DNA of 64,000 nucleotides from Actinomadura craniellae (GTDB taxonomy: Bacteria; Actinomycetota; Actinomycetes; Streptosporangiales; Streptosporangiaceae). The position numbers were made by a program, and so were the translations under genes. Positions within the stretch are counted from its first letter, which is position 1; every line of letters starts with the position of its first letter. Shown here piece after piece: positions 20,564 to 55,668 of this stretch. A model generated the notes under the pieces. It was given only the letters and a program-made list of their open reading frames with translations, was not told the origin of the DNA and did no database searches. Location of the stretch: contig NZ_QLYX01000011.1 of assembly GCF_003289645.1 (NCBI RefSeq), forward strand, positions 124,001 through 188,000, in the 5' to 3' direction.

Positions 20564-22804
20564 CTACGGGGTCTCGCGCACGCTCCGGGCGGCGGCGACG
20601 AGGTTGCGCAGCGCGGCCTCGGTTTCGGGGTAGGCACGGGTCTTCAGGCCGCAGTCGGGGTTGACCCACAGCCGGTCCGGCTCGATGGCCTGCAGCGCCC
20701 GCCGCAGGTTCTCCTCCATCTCCCCGGCGGACGGCACGCGGGGGGAGTGGATGTCGTACACCCCGGGCCCGATGCCGTTCTCGTACCCGGCGGCGCGCAG
20801 GTCGCCGACCAGTTCCATGTGCGAGCGGGCGGCCTCGACGCTGGTGACGTCGGCGTCCAGGTCGCCGATCGCGCCGATGATCTCGCCGAACTCCGAGTAG
20901 CACATGTGCGTGTGGATCTGGGTGCTGTCGGCGACGCCCGAGGTGGCGAGGCGGAACGCGGCGACGGCCCAGTCCAGGTAGGCGGCCTGCTCGGCCCGGC
21001 GCAGCGGCAGCAGTTCGCGCAGGGCGGGCTCGTCCACCTGGATGATGCAGATGCCGGCGGCCTCCAGGTCGTGGATCTCGTCGTGGAGGGCGAGCGCGAC
21101 CTGGCGGGCGGTGTCGGCCAGCGGCTGGTCGTCGCGGACGAACGACCAGGCGAGCATGGTGACCGGGCCGGTGAGCATGCCCTTGACCGGCTTGGTCGTC
21201 AGCGACTGGGCGTAGGTGGCCCACTCGACGGTCATCGGCGCCGGCCGCGCGACGTCGCTGTGCAGGATCGGCGGGCGGACGCAGCGCGAACCGTAGGACT
21301 GCACCCAGCCGTGCTCGGTGGCGGCGTACCCGTCGAGCTGCTCGGCGAAGTACTGCACCATGTCGTTGCGTTCCGGCTCGCCGTGTACCAGGACGTCGAG
21401 CCCCAGCTTCTCCTGCAGGGCGATGACGTGGGCGACCTCGTCCTTCATCGCCTGGGTGTAGGCGTCGCCGGAGATGCGGCCGGCCCGGTGCTCGGCGCGC
21501 GCCCTGCGGATCTCCCCGGTCTGCGGGAACGAGCCGATGGTGGTGGTCGCCAGCGGCGGCAGGCCCAGCACCGCCCGCTGCGCCGCGAACCGGGCCGCCC
21601 GGTCGCCGCGCCGCGCGTCGCCGAGCATGTCGAGCCGGGCCCGTACCCGGTGGTCGATCCCGGCGGCCGCCGCGGGCGCGGGGGCGGCGGCCGGGACGTC
21701 CTCGCGCAGCGCCCGGCCGACGGCGACGACCTCGGCGACCTTCTGCCGGGCGAACGCCAGCCGGGCGCGCACCGCCGGGTCGAGCGCGGTCTCGGCGTCC
21801 AGGTCGACCGGGACGTGCAGCAGCGAGCACGACGTGCCCACCACGACCTCGCCGGCCAGCCCCAGCAGGGCGGCACAGGTCGCCTTGGCCCGCTCCTGGT
21901 CGGCCCGCCACACGTTGCGGCCGTCCACGACCCCGGCGACGACGGTCCGCCGCGGCAGGCCGCCGACCGAGGCGAGCGCGTCGAGGTTGCCCGGCGCCGT
22001 CACGAAGTCCAGGCCGACCCCCTCGACGCGGGTCGCGGCGAGCACCCGCAGGGCCTCGGCGCCGACCGTCCCGAAGTAGGTCGCGACCAGCAGGCGCGGC
22101 CTGCTCGGCAGCTCGCCCAGCCGCCGGTACACGCGCGCCAGCACCGCCAGCTCCTCGGGCGTGCGGTCGGCGACCAGCGCGGGCTCGTCCAGCTGGACCC
22201 ACTGGGTGCCCGCTCCGGACAGCCGCTCCAGCAGCTCGGCGTACACCTCGACCAGCCCGTCGACGAGGTCCAGCGGATGGAAGCCGGCCGGCGCCCCGGG
22301 CTCGGCCTTGGCGAGCAGCAGGTACGTCAGCGGGCCGACGAGCACCGGCCGGGTCTCGATCCCCAGCGCCTTCGCCTCCCGGTACTCGGCCAGCGGCTTG
22401 CACTCCTCCCCGAGCGCCAGCTTGAACGCGGTGCCGGGCCCCAGCTCGGGCACGATGTAGTGGTAGTTCGTGTCGAACCACTTGGTCATCTCCAGCGCGG
22501 GGACGTCCTGCTCGCCGCGCGCCATGGCGAAGTAGCGGTCGAGGCCGCGCAGCGGCCGGTAGCGCTCGGGGACGGCGTCGACGAGCACGCTCGTGTCGAG
22601 CACCTGGTCGTAGTAGGAGAAGGTGTTGGACGGGATCGTGGCGAGCCCGGCGTCGCGCAGTTCCGTCCAGGTCCGGCGGCGCAGCTCGGCGGCGGTGCTC
22701 TCCAGCTCGGCGGTGTCGATCTTCCCGGCCCAGTAGCGCTCGGTGGCGAACTTGAGTTCGCGCCGCGCCCCGATACGGGGGTATCCGAGGATCGTGGTGT
22801 TCAT
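20564..22804 (-). CDS. metE: Cobalamin-independent methionine synthase
   Basis: 746-residue MetE, which moves a methyl group from 5-methyltetrahydropteroyl-triglutamate to homocysteine without B12. The start reads [23 protein letters not shown], and the zinc site is visible in [13 protein letters not shown] (His and Cys) and [13 protein letters not shown] (Cys). Length is normal for the family. The ATG at 22804 follows GAGGGAAG. A cobalamin riboswitch (22928-23095) precedes it, so it should be expressed only when B12 is scarce and a B12-dependent MetH elsewhere is idle. Confidence 0.97.
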
Positions 22805-22927
22805 GGCAGCTTCCCTCGCGTAGCCATCACGCGGCCGCGCAGGAGGAAAGGGCGCACCACGGGTGCGCGTCCGGGGGCCCTCCCGCGAGGCCGCAGACCA
22901 CCGCACGCCGGTCGGCGCGCGGGCGGA

Positions 22928-23095
22928 GGCAGGTCTTCGGACTCGCGGGCGCCACACCTGACCAGGCGTGTCCTACTGGCCGTCGCTTCCCGGACCTGGC
23001 GGCCCAGTGCTCGATGACGGCGGTCGTTCCCACTCACCGCTGCGGGGCAGTCCCGGACTCACACCGGGTTCCCTCTTACGACACCCACCCCGGCA
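22928..23095 (-). promoter_or_regulatory. Cobalamin riboswitch of metE
   Basis: On the minus strand: GGGAACCCGGTGTGAGTCC and GGGACTGCCCCGC (aptamer core), GAGCACTGGGCCGCC (B12-box region), CCGGGAAGCGACGG, and the closing CGAGTCCGAAGACCTGCC. It lies 123 bp before the metE ATG. It is identical over 168 bp, in inverted orientation, to the nrdA riboswitch at 24411-24578. Confidence 0.93.
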
Positions 23096-23276
23096 GGGGC
23101 GGGCGAACCATCCGCGCCCGCGAGTCTAAGCCATGAACCGCCGACGCCACAGGCCCGGCGGGACGCCGTCCACAGCTTGGACACCCGAAGCCGTGCGGTG
23201 GCTGGAGTTCCCATGAGGGGGAACATCTGGCCACCCACGGCGACCGTCTTGAACCTCGACCGGGGCCGGCCCGGTG

Positions 23277-24101
23277 TCAGGCGAAAAGCCGTGCCCCAGG
23301 CTGCTTTCCGATGCGGTCGCTGACGACCAACCCGCCACGCCACCGTCCGGCCTCATCCCGGTATCGGTACTGGCGGCTTCGCACTCGAAGGCCGAACATC
23401 GCACGGACCTCTGCGTACTTCGGTGAGTAGTGCGGGCCTGGCTGACGTGGACAGTAAGCACTCGCTGCCATGGGGAAGATCAAGGTAGAGGCGATCAGGT
23501 CGGCGATCTGCAGTCCTGCGTGGTTGTCACTCGCTGCGAAGAGAGGAACCTCCTGTAGCGGGGGATAAGGATCGCCGCCGGTCCGCCACTTCTGGGTGAA
23601 GATCGAGTGAGCGACCTTCATGTTCGTATGGTGCCTGCGGCTGTCCGCAATCATTACGCCCACTTTGTCCTGTGCCTCCAGGTACTGGGCGAAATGTTTG
23701 GCGATGTCCTGCACTGCGTAGCAATAGCTGGAATCGGGAGCCAGGCCTTTACCAGGTTCCTTGACCCAAACTCGTCCGACAATCCGGCAGTCGTATCGTT
23801 CGGCGAGATCTACCAGTTCCTGGCGCAACCTCTGCGCTTGGCGTCGAGAGTTACGGCCAGAGCTCCGAGTCATGTGCAGGATGTCGCTGCCCTTCACCTC
23901 TGTAAGGATGTGATCAAGAGCATGTCCTGCGGCGTAGCGACCTGGAAAGTGCCGACGCTTGAGTGCCAGGAAGTCGCGCGTCAGGGCAGGTATCGAAGCG
24001 GCGTCCACAATTAAGCCGAGGATCACCATCACAGGGGTGGCCGATCGATTGCTGTCAGGGGCTTCGTATCCGCCTGACTCGTCCAGGTAACAGACATACA
24101 C
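23277..24101 (-). CDS. DUF3800 domain protein between two inverted riboswitches
   Basis: 274 residues. DUF3800 features: CYLDESGGYEAP at the N terminus, MIADSRRHHTNMKVAHSIF in the middle, and ASDNHAGLQIADLIASTL, the acidic residues of which suggest an RNase H-like nuclease fold. The role is unknown; relatives are frequent on mobile elements and in defence islands. Its base composition is clearly lower in GC than its neighbours, so it looks acquired. It sits between metE and nrdA, enclosed by the 168-bp inverted riboswitch pair, with a strong palindrome 16 bp upstream of its start. Confidence 0.85.
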   Translation of the reverse strand: MYVCYLDESGGYEAPDSNRSATPVMVILGLIVDAASIPALTRDFLALKRRHFPGRYAAGHALDHILTEVKGSDILHMTRSSGRNSRRQAQRLRQELVDLAERYDCRIVGRVWVKEPGKGLAPDSSYCYAVQDIAKHFAQYLEAQDKVGVMIADSRRHHTNMKVAHSIFTQKWRTGGDPYPPLQEVPLFAASDNHAGLQIADLIASTLIFPMAASAYCPRQPGPHYSPKYAEVRAMFGLRVRSRQYRYRDEAGRWRGGLVVSDRIGKQPGARLFA

Positions 24102-24116
24102 CTGGTCAAGATAGCG

Positions 24117-24144
24117 CTAAGGCCGCCCCGTGGGGCGGCCTTAG
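24117..24144. terminator. Perfect palindrome upstream of the DUF3800 gene
   Basis: CTAAGGCCGCCCC and GGGGCGGCCTTAG around a GT centre, 28 bp. It looks like a bidirectional terminator, but it lies before rather than after the DUF3800 gene. It may insulate that gene from transcription directed at nrdA, or mark the edge of the inserted segment. Confidence 0.6.
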
Positions 24145-24410
24145 GATGTGGTGTTCGGGTCTCCCCTAGGCACCTTAAGAAGGTTTCTGCCCTCAGTAGA
24201 GCACACTCATGCCCTCAGAGGCAAAGAAGAAGAGGCACGTACCGCATCGTTCGACCCTGGCGAGCCGTGCGGCCACGGCGTTCGTGGCTTCGCGGTCCCG
24301 AGAGCTGGTTCCATCTCGACCGAGTGTCTTCCGACACTCAAGATGTGGGGTTGGTGGGGCTGGGGTGACACCAGATGTATGGTCTTCTGGTGCTGGTTCG
24401 CCTGCCCTTT

Positions 24411-24578
24411 TGCCGGGGTGGGTGTCGTAAGAGGGAACCCGGTGTGAGTCCGGGACTGCCCCGCAGCGGTGAGTGGGAACGACCGCCGTCATCGAGCACT
24501 GGGCCGCCAGGTCCGGGAAGCGACGGCCAGTAGGACACGCCTGGTCAGGTGTGGCGCCCGCGAGTCCGAAGACCTGCC
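24411..24578 (+). promoter_or_regulatory. Cobalamin riboswitch of nrdAB
   Basis: The same aptamer as at 22928-23095, here on the plus strand: GGTGTGAGTCC, GGGACTGCCCCGC, GAGCACTGGGCC and CGAGTCCGAAGACCTGCC are all present. It lies 109 bp before the nrdA start. B12 riboswitches on class Ia ribonucleotide reductase operons are known from Streptomyces coelicolor, where they turn the enzyme off when the B12-dependent class II enzyme can work. Confidence 0.93.
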
Positions 24579-24686
24579 AGCGCGTTGTTCGTCCACGGCC
24601 TCGAGGGAGGGCGCGTGGGTGCCGGTGCGTCGTGCCCCTGCTCCCGCCGCGTCCTCTCCCGGGGCGGCTTGCGAGGGAGAGAGCAC

Positions 24687-26948
24687 GTGACACAGGAACT
24701 GATCGCGCCGCCGGTCACGGACGCCGAGGAGATCCGGCGGGCCTGCGCGGGGCTGCCCGGCGTCACCCCGGACCGGCTGCCGGCCGATCGCGCGGCGGCC
24801 ATCAGCGAGGCCGCGGCGCTGATCGTGACCGAGCCCGCCTACTCGACGGTCGCGGCCCGGCTGCTGGCCCGGCAGATCGCCGAGGAGGCCGGCGAACCGA
24901 CCTTCGCCGAGGCGATCGCGGTGGCGCACGCCGAGGGGCTGCTCAACGACGCGACCGCCGCGTTCGTCGCCGCGCACGCCGCCGAGCTGGAGGAACTGGT
25001 CGACCACGGGGCCGACGACCGGTTCACCTACTTCGGGCTGCGCACCGTCCACGACCGGTACCTGCTGCGGCACCCGGAGTCCCGCCGGGTGCTGGAGCGC
25101 CCGCAGCACTTCCTGCTGCGGGTGGCCTGCGGGCTGGCGGACACCGTCGGTGAGGCAGCGGAACTGTACGGGCCGATGTCGCGGCTGGCCTACCTGCCCA
25201 GCTCGCCCACCCTGTTCAACTCCGGGGCCCGCCGCCCGCAGCTGTCCTCGTGCTTCCTGCTGGACTCGCCCCGCGACGAGTTGGAGTCCATCTACGAGCG
25301 GTACGGGCAGGTCGCCCGGCTCAGCAAGTACGCCGGCGGCATCGGCATCTCCTGGAGCCGGATCCGGTCGCGCGGGTCGCTGATCCGCGGCACCAACGGG
25401 CACTCCAACGGGATCGTGCCGTGGCTGCGCACCCTGGACGCCTCGGTGGCGGCGGTCAACCAGGGCGGCCGGCGCAAGGGCGCGGCCTGCGTCTACCTGG
25501 AGACCTGGCACGCCGACATCGAGGAGTTCCTGGAGCTGCGCGACAACACGGGAGAGGAGGCCCGCCGCACGCACAACCTCAACCTGGCCAACTGGATCCC
25601 CGACGAGTTCATGCGCCGGGTCGAGGCCGACGCCGACTGGTCGCTGTTCGACCCCAAGGAGGTGCCGGAGCTCACCGACCTGTGGGGGGCGGAGTTCGAC
25701 ACCGCCTACCGGGCGGCCGAGGACGCCGGGCGGTACGTGCGGCGGGTGCCCGCACGAACCCTGTACGGCCGGATGATGCGGACGCTGGCGCAGACCGGCA
25801 ACGGCTGGATGACCTTCAAGGACGCCGCCAACCGCGCCTGCAACCAGACCGCCGAGCCGGGCCGCGTCGTGCACCTGTCCAACCTGTGCACCGAGATCCT
25901 CCAGGTCACCGACGACGCCGAGACCGCCGTGTGCAACCTCGGCTCGGTCAACCTCGCCGCCCACCTCACCGGCGACGACCTCGACTGGGAGCGGCTGCGC
26001 ACCACCGTCGGCACCGCCGTGCGGTTCCTGGACCGCACCATCGACCGGGGCTTCTACCCCACGCCGGAGGCGGCCCGGGCCAACGCCGGGTGGCGCCCGG
26101 TCGGGCTGGGCGTGATGGGGCTGGCGGACGTGTTCTTCCGGCTGCGGTTGCCGTTCGACTCGCCGGCCGCGCTGGAACTGTCCACCCGCATCGCCGAGGA
26201 GATCTCGCTCGCCGCCTACACCGAGTCGGCCCGGCTGGCCGTCGAGTACGGCCCGCACCCGGGTTACGAGCGCACCCGGGCGGCGCGCGGGGTGCTGCAC
26301 CCCGACCACTGGCCCGACGCGCTCTCCCGGCACCCCGAGCGGTGGGACGAGCTCCGCAGCACGGTCGCCCGGACCGGGCTGCGCAACTCGCTGCTGATCG
26401 CCATCGCGCCGACCGCGACCATCGCGTCCATCGCCGGCTGCTACGAGTGCATCGAGCCGCAGGTGTCGAACGTCTTCAAGCGCGAGACCCTCTCGGGGGA
26501 GTTCCTGCAGATCAACCGGTACCTCGTCGATGACCTCAAGGCGCGCGGCCTGTGGACGCAGGCCGTCCGCGACGCCATCAAACGCGCCGACGGGTCCGTG
26601 CAGGGCATCGCCGAGATCCCGGGCGACCTGCGCGCGCTCTACCGCACCGCGTGGGAACTGCCGCAGAAGGCGCTGATCGACCTGGCCGCGGCCCGCACCC
26701 CGTACATCGACCAGTCCCAGTCGCTCAACCTGTTCATGGCCGACCCGACCATCGGGAAGCTGTCGTCGATGTACGCCTACGCGTGGCGCAGCGGCCTGAA
26801 GACCACCTACTACCTGCGCTCGCGCCCGGCGACCCGGATCGCCCAGACCACCGTCGCCCAGACCACCGCCGCGCAGCTCGCCGTCACCCCGACCGAGGCG
26901 GTCACGTGCTCCCTGGAGAACCCCGAGATCTGCGAGGCGTGCCAGTGA
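24687..26948 (+). CDS. nrdA: Class Ia ribonucleotide reductase, large subunit
   Basis: 753 residues; reduces ribonucleoside diphosphates. SSCFLL supplies an active-site Cys, NLCTEI the thiyl-radical Cys with its Asn and Glu, VCNLGSVNL the partner Cys, and PTATIASIAG the phosphate loop. The C terminus ENPEICEACQ has the CxxC that takes electrons from thioredoxin. The N terminus is shorter than in E. coli NrdA and keeps only part of an ATP-cone-like segment, so dATP feedback may differ. The start is the GTG at 24687 after GAGGGAGAG. The gene overlaps nrdB by 4 bp. Confidence 0.95.
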   Translation: MTQELIAPPVTDAEEIRRACAGLPGVTPDRLPADRAAAISEAAALIVTEPAYSTVAARLLARQIAEEAGEPTFAEAIAVAHAEGLLNDATAAFVAAHAAELEELVDHGADDRFTYFGLRTVHDRYLLRHPESRRVLERPQHFLLRVACGLADTVGEAAELYGPMSRLAYLPSSPTLFNSGARRPQLSSCFLLDSPRDELESIYERYGQVARLSKYAGGIGISWSRIRSRGSLIRGTNGHSNGIVPWLRTLDASVAAVNQGGRRKGAACVYLETWHADIEEFLELRDNTGEEARRTHNLNLANWIPDEFMRRVEADADWSLFDPKEVPELTDLWGAEFDTAYRAAEDAGRYVRRVPARTLYGRMMRTLAQTGNGWMTFKDAANRACNQTAEPGRVVHLSNLCTEILQVTDDAETAVCNLGSVNLAAHLTGDDLDWERLRTTVGTAVRFLDRTIDRGFYPTPEAARANAGWRPVGLGVMGLADVFFRLRLPFDSPAALELSTRIAEEISLAAYTESARLAVEYGPHPGYERTRAARGVLHPDHWPDALSRHPERWDELRSTVARTGLRNSLLIAIAPTATIASIAGCYECIEPQVSNVFKRETLSGEFLQINRYLVDDLKARGLWTQAVRDAIKRADGSVQGIAEIPGDLRALYRTAWELPQKALIDLAAARTPYIDQSQSLNLFMADPTIGKLSSMYAYAWRSGLKTTYYLRSRPATRIAQTTVAQTTAAQLAVTPTEAVTCSLENPEICEACQ

Positions 26949-27955
26949 GCGCCCGCGGCACGCTGCTCGACCCGGGGATGGACCTGACCCTGCGGCCGAT
27001 GCGTTACCCGGGTTTCTACGACCGCTACCGCGCCGCGATCCGCAACACCTGGACCGTCGAGGAGGTCGACCTGCACTCGGACCTGGCCGACCTGGCCCGG
27101 CTGAACGCGGGGGAGCTGCACCTGGTCAACCGGCTGGTGGCGTTCTTCGCCACCGGCGACACCATCGTCGCCAACAATCTGGTGCTCAACCTCTACAAGC
27201 ACCTCAACGCCCCCGAGGCGCGGCTGTACCTGTCGCGGCAGCTGTTCGAGGAGGCCGTCCATGTCCAGTTCTACCTGACCCTGCTGGACACCTACCTGCC
27301 CGACGAGGCCGAGCGGGCGAAGGCGTTCGCCGCGGTGGAGAACATCCCCTCCATCCGGGACAAGGCGGAGTTCTGCCTGCGCTGGATCGACTCCCTCGGC
27401 GAGCTGGACGCGCTGCGGACCCGGGCGGACCGGCGGGCGTTCCTGCTCAACCTGGTCTGCTTCGCCGCGTGCATCGAGGGCCTGTTCTTCTACGGCGCCT
27501 TCGCCTACGTGTACTGGCTGCGTTCCCGGGGCCTGCTCAACGGCCTGGCCTCGGGGACCAACTGGGTCTTCCGCGACGAGTCCATGCACATGGAGTTCGC
27601 CTTCTCCGTCATCGACACCGTCCGGGCCGAGGAGCCGGAACTCTTCGACGACGAGCTCACCAAGCAGGTGACCGTGATGCTGGAGGAAGCCGTCGCCGCC
27701 GAGACGGCCTTCGCCCGCGACCTGTGCGGTGACGGCCTGCCCGGGATGAGCGCCGGGGACATGCGCGCCTACCTGGAGAACATCGCCGACCAGCGGCTGG
27801 CCCGCCTCGGCATGCCGCCGCGGTACGGCACCGCCAACCCGTTCGCCTTCATGGAGTTGCAGGACGTCCAGGAGCTGTCGAACTTCTTCGAGCGCCGCGT
27901 CTCGGCCTACCAGGTCGCCGTCGAGGGGACGGTCGCCTTCGACGAGGCGTTCTGA
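26945..27955 (+). CDS. nrdB: Class Ia ribonucleotide reductase, small (radical) subunit
   Basis: 336 residues. The di-iron ligands are visible as ATGDTIVANNL (Asp), QLFEEAVHVQFY (Glu and His), ACIEGLFFYG (Glu) and RDESMHMEF (Glu and His). Tyr in HVQFY, four residues after the His ligand, is at the place of the radical tyrosine, so this is a tyrosyl-radical enzyme and not the Tyr-less class Ic. GTG start overlapping the nrdA stop (GTGA). A strong terminator follows 4 bp after its stop. No NrdR or NrdS-like gene is adjacent. Confidence 0.95.
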   Translation: MSARGTLLDPGMDLTLRPMRYPGFYDRYRAAIRNTWTVEEVDLHSDLADLARLNAGELHLVNRLVAFFATGDTIVANNLVLNLYKHLNAPEARLYLSRQLFEEAVHVQFYLTLLDTYLPDEAERAKAFAAVENIPSIRDKAEFCLRWIDSLGELDALRTRADRRAFLLNLVCFAACIEGLFFYGAFAYVYWLRSRGLLNGLASGTNWVFRDESMHMEFAFSVIDTVRAEEPELFDDELTKQVTVMLEEAVAAETAFARDLCGDGLPGMSAGDMRAYLENIADQRLARLGMPPRYGTANPFAFMELQDVQELSNFFERRVSAYQVAVEGTVAFDEAF

Positions 27956-27990: not shown

Positions 27991-28054
27991 GCTCACCTCG
28001 AGTGCCGGTAGTGGAACCGGGGGGTGACTAGTGGCGATTGATCACGTATGTCAC

Positions 28055-28222
28055 TATGTGCGGTGTAGGCGACGGCGGAACGAGGAAGCCGGTGTGAATC
28101 CGGCGCGGTCCCGCCACTGTGATCGGCGAGCGGATCCCGAACCACGCCACTGCCCGGACACGGGTGGGAAGGCCGGGACGAGCATCGACCCGAGAGCCAG
28201 GAGACTCACGCGGTCGCCTCCT
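28055..28222 (+). promoter_or_regulatory. Cobalamin riboswitch of the B12 import operon
   Basis: Aptamer core GGAAGCCGGTGTGAATCCGG and CGGTCCCGCCACTGT, B12 box GCCACTG at about 28146, GGGTGGGAAGGCC, and closing CGAGAGCCAGGAGAC. Its sequence differs from the metE/nrdA pair, so it is an independent copy. A GGGGCGGATCTCCCC hairpin at about 28231-28246 just before the ribosome site could be the expression platform. Confidence 0.92.
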
Positions 28223-28267
28223 CGATGAAGCTGGGGCGGATCTCCCCAGAGAGGAGGGCGTTCCGGC

Positions 28268-55504: not shown

Positions 55505-55668
55505 GTCGCAGATCATCCCTGGAGGGATAGCAACGCCAGGGTGAGGCGGTGGGCGTCCTGCTCCCGGATGGTCGCAGATCATCCCTGGAGGGATAGCAAC
55601 CTGAAGGTGACCCGGAACATGAACGCGCCGGCGGCCGGGTCGCGGATTATCCCTGGAGAGGACGTAAC
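55505..55668 (+). CRISPR. CRISPR array 3 (different 30-bp repeat)
   Basis: Repeats at 55505-55534, 55571-55600 and 55639-55668. The first two are identical, GTCGCAGATCATCC then CTGGAGGGATAGCAAC, with an internal ATCCCTGGAGGGAT palindrome; the third has 5 changes, as terminal repeats do. Spacers are 36 and 38 bp. The repeat is unrelated to that of arrays 1 and 2, so another CRISPR system, absent from the window, made it. Confidence 0.85.

Follow-up and report, generated by a model that had tools for sequence, protein, structure and literature searches.

Identical cobalamin riboswitch cores inverted upstream of metE and nrdA in Actinomadura craniellae: a probable case of recent gene conversion

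The window analysed here is a 64,000-nt stretch of the Actinomadura craniellae genome (contig NZ_QLYX01000011.1, positions 124,001 to 188,000), a draft of 7.5 Mb in 41 contigs that is 99% complete. Within it metE and nrdA stand back to back, each directly 3' of a match to the cobalamin riboswitch family RF00174, and a DUF3800 gene lies between the two riboswitches. The features, in window coordinates, are as follows:

20564–22804, minus strand: metE, cobalamin-independent methionine synthase (PF01717, 4e-151; PF08267, 3e-118; nearest MetE 84%)
22805–22922, minus strand: metE leader 3' of the aptamer (expression platform), of metE type (mean local score 77 against 45 metE leaders, 30 against 45 nrdA leaders)
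22911–23128, minus strand: metE cobalamin riboswitch (RF00174, 87.4 bits)
22928–23095, minus strand: aptamer core, copy 1, probably converted; 168 bp, 100% identical to copy 2 (repeat search, base comparison)
23096–23200, minus strand: metE upstream region, of metE type, with a TAGACT element; putative promoter (scores 36 metE, 24 nrdA; p 1.8e-7)
23277–24101, minus strand: DUF3800 gene, predicted RNase H-like fold (PF12686, 2.3e-13; pLDDT 74.7, pTM 0.80; RNase HII Z 9.1)
23280–24229, minus strand: DUF3800 unit (upstream region, RNA and gene), approximate extent from homology to other loci
24111–24174, minus strand: structured leader RNA of the DUF3800 gene (model R1), including a 28-bp palindrome (conservation, covariation)
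24117–24144, minus strand: terminal hairpin of the leader RNA, the same palindrome (palindrome search, shuffles, covariation)
24341–24410, plus strand: nrdA upstream region, of nrdA type; putative promoter (scores 32 nrdA, 22 metE; p 2e-7)
24377–24595, plus strand: nrdA cobalamin riboswitch (RF00174, 99.1 bits)
24411–24578, plus strand: aptamer core, copy 2, probably converted (repeat search, base comparison)
24584–24686, plus strand: nrdA leader 3' of the aptamer, of nrdA type (mean 44.5 against nrdA leaders, 32.5 against metE leaders, p 0.00055; best G401 nrdA)
24687–26948, plus strand: nrdA, class I ribonucleotide reductase large chain (PF02867, 1.5e-193)
26942–27955, plus strand: nrdB, small chain, start approximate (PF00268, 3.1e-80)

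A base-by-base comparison of the two aptamer cores, read on opposite strands, found 168 of 168 bases the same. Outside them similarity is scattered: a repeat search delimits arms of 173 nt (22923–23095 and 24411–24583; 99% complementary, spacing 1315 nt), and a gapped search widens the repeat to 185 columns at 97.8%. Both RF00174 matches lie above the gathering cut-off of 31.5 bits. A sequence-only reading of the locus, which had described two identical, inverted 168-bp cobalamin riboswitches of metE and nrdA, weaker similarity running past them and a lower-GC DUF3800 gene in between (GC 0.60 versus 0.72 for the window), was borne out on these points. A third RF00174 copy (28039–28227, 107.5 bits) precedes an ABC-transporter operon (FecCD and periplasmic-binding families); since it is only about 44% identical to the metE and nrdA copies, the likeness of the pair is not mere family conservation. 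Cobalamin riboswitches at these genes have precedents: according to PMC4991794, Borovok 2006 found one controlling the Streptomyces class Ia nrdABS genes, and metE is described as under one in Mycobacterium (PMC8088520). The window has RF00174 upstream of the same two genes; unlike in the known cases, its cores are identical and inverted. Judged by gene identity, both are of the kind that has a B12-dependent counterpart, and the B12-bound aptamers would most likely repress metE and nrdAB when B12-dependent enzymes can serve. The closest NrdA among the named genomes is that of Actinomadura sp. DC4 (82% identity), and the closest MetE in 49 searched genomes is that of Actinomadura sp. NBRC 104425 (84%). 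Compared with the nearest named locus for nrdAB (L038), only riboswitch, nrdA and nrdB are in place among the matches listed; these include one further match of about 100 bits elsewhere, the others being low-scoring. No terminators were found in a scan of 22700–24800. Elsewhere in the window (55505–55600, minus strand) lie two CRISPR-DR12 repeats (RF01325), possibly a tiny CRISPR array.

To place the pair among its relatives we compared metE and nrdA aptamers within and between genomes. The sample started from a search of 338 genomes of the family with the 168-bp query, keeping genomes with two matches among those listed; seven genomes whose second match came from another search were added, as was Actinophytocola gossypii, whose leaders looked alike. 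The sample is therefore not random but biased to aptamers resembling those of the window, and the source genome is the sole member of its genus in it. It came to 44 genomes (window included) with one metE and one nrdA aptamer each, assigned by downstream gene; G006 and G009 were left out, the second riboswitch falling below the 40-bit limit or the downstream gene being unassigned. A second metE riboswitch of genome G111 was kept out of the core-difference and shuffle counts and enters a comparison of 45 pairs for identity. The two cores of a genome show no difference in the window and in A. gossypii, 7 differences in G315 and 11–69 in every other genome (median over the 44 genomes, 32). In the genomes other than that of the window, 60 of the 162 core columns aligned have less than 95% consensus and count as variable. 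The expectation that independent aptamers would differ thus agrees with 42 of 44 genomes, at 7–69 core positions. Median identity over the 45 pairs is 0.781 within genomes versus 0.751 between genomes, and metE and nrdA aptamers from different genomes share exact runs of at most 96 nt (2071 pairs). Finally, the seven differences in G315 (L221, L222) may record an older conversion there, and in Micromonospora inaquosa (L133, 1194–1356 and 3953–4118) a second cobalamin riboswitch lies shortly 3' of metE, with 82% identity to the upstream one.

Only in the window and in A. gossypii, among the 44 genomes, does identity within the genome exceed that to the best orthologue of both copies, A. gossypii having no near relative in the set. 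The best matches to the 168-bp core, among those listed, are the metE aptamer of G387 and the nrdA aptamer of G119, both at 92%. The genome closest by upstream flanks, G401, comes from outside the genus of the source genome and carries a diverged pair (79% identity). A tree of the aptamers mostly follows the gene, with 9 label changes versus 31 in shuffles; at least three changes are forced by well-supported branches, and many forks are poorly supported. As to the arrangement of the two genes, a search around 80 nrdA loci, with at most 10 kb of flank and some flanks shortened by contig ends, found no metE nearby, and in A. syzygii and A. chibensis the two genes are about 30 kb apart.

We then asked to which gene the sequence on either side of each core belongs. 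Upstream, in a comparison that includes a short piece of aptamer, the window metE flank scores 36 against metE and 24 against nrdA flanks (p 1.8e-7), and the nrdA flank 32 against nrdA and 22 against metE (p 2e-7). Downstream, where stretches reaching slightly into the gene were compared with 45 metE and 45 nrdA leaders, the metE leader has a mean of 77 versus 30 (p 2.7e-15) and the nrdA leader 44.5 against its own type versus 32.5 (p 0.00055). Copying of a whole leader would bring along the promoter side or the expression platform; since the flanks are each gene's own, the common tract is essentially the aptamer core. The window pair thus combines copies that are closer within the genome than to orthologues with unconverted flanks, the pattern taken here as the mark of conversion. 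Duplication of a whole riboswitch onto the other gene, whose regulation it would have replaced or founded, would also account for the complete identity of the aptamers, and in A. gossypii the common leader is identical all the way to the ribosome-binding site. For the window it is largely refuted by the gene-specific type of both flanks of each aptamer, and related Actinomadura metE genes already have their own riboswitch, so we regard it as improbable. The same gene-specific flanks show that the repeats are neither a copied leader nor the ends of a mobile element. Terminal inverted repeats of a transposon were accordingly rejected: the repeats are native riboswitches, and the homology of the DUF3800 unit ends inside them.

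The best explanation, which we consider likely, is that the two neighbouring, inverted aptamers underwent gene conversion once and recently; the restriction to a single event, the recombination mechanism and the order of events we infer from the comparisons above. In this scenario metE and nrdA would each have had their own cobalamin riboswitch, differing at about one fifth of positions as in related genomes. Once the two genes had come to lie back to back in this lineage, their aptamers would have formed a near inverted repeat 1.3 kb apart, and homologous recombination may then have copied one core over the other, once and recently. A tract confined to the aptamer, the region of highest homology, would spare both promoter regions and both expression platforms, so that conversion would have equalised the sensing domains while each gene kept its own promoter and platform. 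Both genes are presumably still repressed by the same cofactor. The event may have arisen by accident during recombination, and the common ligand of the two genes perhaps explains why it was tolerated. Independently of this, the DUF3800 unit would have inserted between the two genes, upstream of both, bringing a leader RNA and what appears to be a promoter of its own. As to the donor, diagnostic sites are mixed, and their counts disagree between reference genomes and are inflated by gaps.

The earlier reading held that recent duplication or ongoing conversion must keep the aptamers alike. Recent recombinational copying fits, since such aptamers normally differ; ongoing conversion does not, given the free divergence elsewhere. 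Within-genome pairs are indeed more alike than shuffled partners across the 44 genomes (0 of 20000 shuffles reach the observed value, with or without the two identical twins), as would be expected if the pair were a regulatory device kept identical by continuing conversion or selection. Contrasts of each pair with the nearest relative are positive in only 15 of 42 cases, which is no excess, and the broad likeness within genomes is therefore old and of clade level; family-wide concerted evolution was therefore rejected despite the positive shuffle test. Two genomes also carry the genes back to back. In G855 (L377, 3495–4194) metE and a ribonucleotide reductase gene have riboswitches 272 bp apart and aptamers that are 78% identical; in G111 (L208) nrdA and metE are about 1.1 kb apart with aptamers 78–82% identical depending on the alignment, and the gap between their riboswitches holds a further RF00174 match of 38 bits. 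No DUF3800 gene lies beside either pair in the stretches fetched. Close back-to-back pairs that stay diverged, without DUF3800, in two genomes argue that no structure is being maintained and that proximity alone is insufficient for identity. Aptamers that differ freely in relatives were what the earlier reading had itself named as evidence against a maintained pair, and identical pairs occur in only 2 of 44 genomes; we give a maintained device little credence. The G111 stretch is unusual in its own right: five RF00174 matches (L208, 4351–13417) fall within one 20-kb stretch, together with two metE genes and nrdA.

A. gossypii, of another family, is an independent case. Its metE and nrdA (L132 and L080), on different contigs, are preceded by 303 identical bp that run from near the presumed transcript start to the ribosome-binding site, with unlike sequence on either side. 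Among the matches listed for 249 genomes of its family there is no other equal pair. Complete homogenisation is thus seen in two of the genomes compared, over different extents, and since the A. gossypii loci are on separate contigs, identity of the kind left by conversion also occurs without demonstrated adjacency. Gene conversion and concerted evolution of bacterial repeats have been described for rRNA operons (PMC8022953) and prokaryotic paralogues (PMC6053082). As in the accounts given there, copies within the genome are closer than orthologues; unlike there, the unit is a small non-coding sensor, the genes are non-paralogous, and the events look isolated rather than part of a steady state. 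We found no report of riboswitches of non-paralogous genes made identical in the open-access literature, as judged mainly on titles and abstract openings. The two cases are concrete examples of such riboswitches, with tract limits that can be read. A tentative extension, which we hold to be possible but doubtful, is that recombination repeatedly transfers riboswitch modules, as units, between operons under separate regulation, the core (168 bp in the window) or the whole leader (303 bp in A. gossypii) being copied between B12-repressed genes with tract ends at module borders. If so, a gene could take over the ligand response of another with its promoter and coding sequence unchanged, and, if this were general, sensing could be transplanted between operons in one step.

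Perfect inverted repeats at a spacing of 1.3 kb could recombine, and such repeats are present here; an invertible switch that flips the 1.3-kb segment and exchanges the metE and nrdA promoters is thus conceivable. The sequence-only reading had suggested that inversion would leave both riboswitches intact. Since the upstream regions of metE and nrdA both lie inside the segment, inversion would swap them, and the idea that everything stays intact fails on this point. The assembled flanks are in the ancestral orientation, each upstream region being of the ancestral type, and the one spacer ORF tested for this is the DUF3800 gene and not a known recombinase, which makes a switch extremely unlikely. 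An assembly artefact, in which one aptamer sequence was used twice, could be suspected in a draft of 41 contigs. Repeat copies that are 20% different are expected to yield separate assembly paths, the four flanks, each of its own gene's type, speak for correct joins, and there is the second case in another family; we consider an artefact very unlikely.

The DUF3800 gene between the repeats turned out to have a history of its own. Its protein matches PF12686 (E 2.3e-13, 51.5 bits, cutoff 21), and matches to the protein were found in 11 of 341 family genomes, as a short fragment only in G171 and G238 and in pieces in G226 and G115. Homology between the loci continues past the start codon and through the palindrome to about 24205–24229, the other end being the stop codon. 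In G232 and G243, of one genus, a 1019-bp unit is 89% identical while the adjoining sequence is unlike; one other nearby block is common to both (453 bp, 85%), at different distances. In G120 and G115, of another genus, the unit sits inside long homologous flanks and was therefore inherited in place. The DUF3800 unit thus behaves as a discrete element that, on sequence comparison, is at least sometimes transferred, and the gene looks like a travelling cassette, unrelated to the riboswitches beside it, that has a leader RNA of its own. Being sporadic, with its own leader and in other places in other genomes, it does not support the picture of a gene held between riboswitch repeats. A terminator-like hairpin 3' of its stop codon is unsupported (z 0.05). 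No relatives were found in the phage collection; in viral contigs the window protein alone gave no DUF3800 match and an alignment gave five. The protein had no match in PADLOC or, by sequence, in PDB, and only a weak one in PHROGs (E 0.034).

A single-sequence fold of the protein was poor (pLDDT 41), and the model used was built from an alignment of six sequences (mean pLDDT 74.7, pTM 0.80; residues 156–192 poor). In the VIA structural comparison RNase HII was the best match (Z 9.1, 3.5 Å over 150 residues), where a best Z of 7–8 is typical of the tool even without a clear match, and the top 17 rows (Z at least 7.6) are all RNase H2/H3 entries or complexes; with Foldseek the best E was only 0.012. 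We therefore predict a fold of the RNase H type, with RNase H2 as its nearest match. Such a fold and a link to putative non-coding RNAs are reported for DUF3800 in PMC10910872, which also links a TPR-DUF3800 protein to Cas12a2. The window protein shares with that one the DUF3800 domain, the (here predicted) RNase H-type fold and the link to a non-coding RNA; it differs in being single-domain with a leader RNA, and there is no CRISPR effector among 13 window proteins scanned.

The 28-bp palindrome that the earlier reading placed in the spacer is real (core 24119–24142; 0 in 100 shuffles), and we read it as the terminal hairpin of a leader RNA that is conserved and shows covariation. Positions 24111–24174 are conserved 5' of DUF3800 in nine of the nine rows first aligned, window included (L162, which lacks the N-terminus, was left out). 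In the proposed layout a 4-bp stem closes a small hairpin, a linker carries an invariant TCCT, and the palindrome forms a long terminal hairpin; RNAalifold gave essentially the same structure. Over 12 sequences 97.9% of cells pair and two-sided changes occur at 7 pairs. None of 500 shuffles reached the pairing, two-sided change or covariation scores, 12 of 500 equalled or exceeded the count of further pair types, and pairing is lost when the partners are slid against each other. For the covariation counts, G673 and G535 were left out of alignment A3, and alignment A5 also omits G243, G143, G226, G535 and one Thiothrix row of an identical pair. Once rows from proteobacteria are included, the closing stem takes the forms GGTG/CACC, GGCG/CGCC, GCTG/CAGC and GTCG/CGAC, the covariation score is 0.359 versus 0.171 in shuffles (0 of 500), and two-sided pairs number 6 versus 3.5 (reached by 10 of 500); further pair types are not above shuffles (209 of 500).

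A model of the leader was built from nine sequences (its E-values are rough) and searched against 338 family genomes, where it gave 11 strong matches (at least 75 bits). Nine of them had been used to build the model, and each has a DUF3800 match next to it. Of the two new ones, that in G401 (L316) has remnants of both gene ends only and that in G250 (L315) a gene match at chance level: a leader RNA with an internally deleted DUF3800 gene in the first, and one without a recognisable gene in the second. Matches in 24 other family genomes reach at most 33 bits, several of them to the hairpin alone, and were treated as chance. Among 394 genomes of the class, 36 had matches; the strong new ones, in G051 (another family, 67 bits) and G673 (a third family, 50 bits), lie directly 5' of a PF12686 gene, a 39-bit match in G535 has no clear gene, and the rest reach at most 36 bits. 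Proteobacterial plasmids yielded 10 DUF3800 loci, of which four were examined; the model matches 5' of the gene in all four (E between 1.7e-6 and 9.3e-5 for 9 kb), with the same motif sequence in two Thiothrix loci. In viral contigs it matches two of five DUF3800 loci, with one more recognised by eye, and a pattern search for the motif there gave none. The leader loci, in Actinobacteria, proteobacterial plasmids and some viral contigs, are:

24111–24174 of the window (minus strand); L309–L319, L329, L330, L382–L386 and L388

Structured RNAs directly upstream of DUF3800 genes make up the DUF3800 motif series of Rfam, and the window leader has the same position. That series includes DUF3800-I (RF02969) and DUF3800-IX (RF02968) (PMC11701678). 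Unlike its members, the window leader is matched by no Rfam DUF3800 model: the Rfam 15 DUF3800 families gave no match to the scanned leader loci at E up to 10 in one scan or up to 1 in the others. We therefore propose the leader, found in three actinobacterial families, on proteobacterial plasmids and in some viral contigs, as a candidate new RNA family. The unit most likely pairs a leader RNA with an RNase H-like protein that binds it or is controlled by it, a testable RNA–protein system whose RNA is matched by no Rfam 15 family. Finally, a Thiothrix subterranea plasmid (L384) carries a DUF3800 gene and this leader RNA close to where metE ends, probably by coincidence, and one small annotated gene overlaps this DUF3800/metE neighbourhood.
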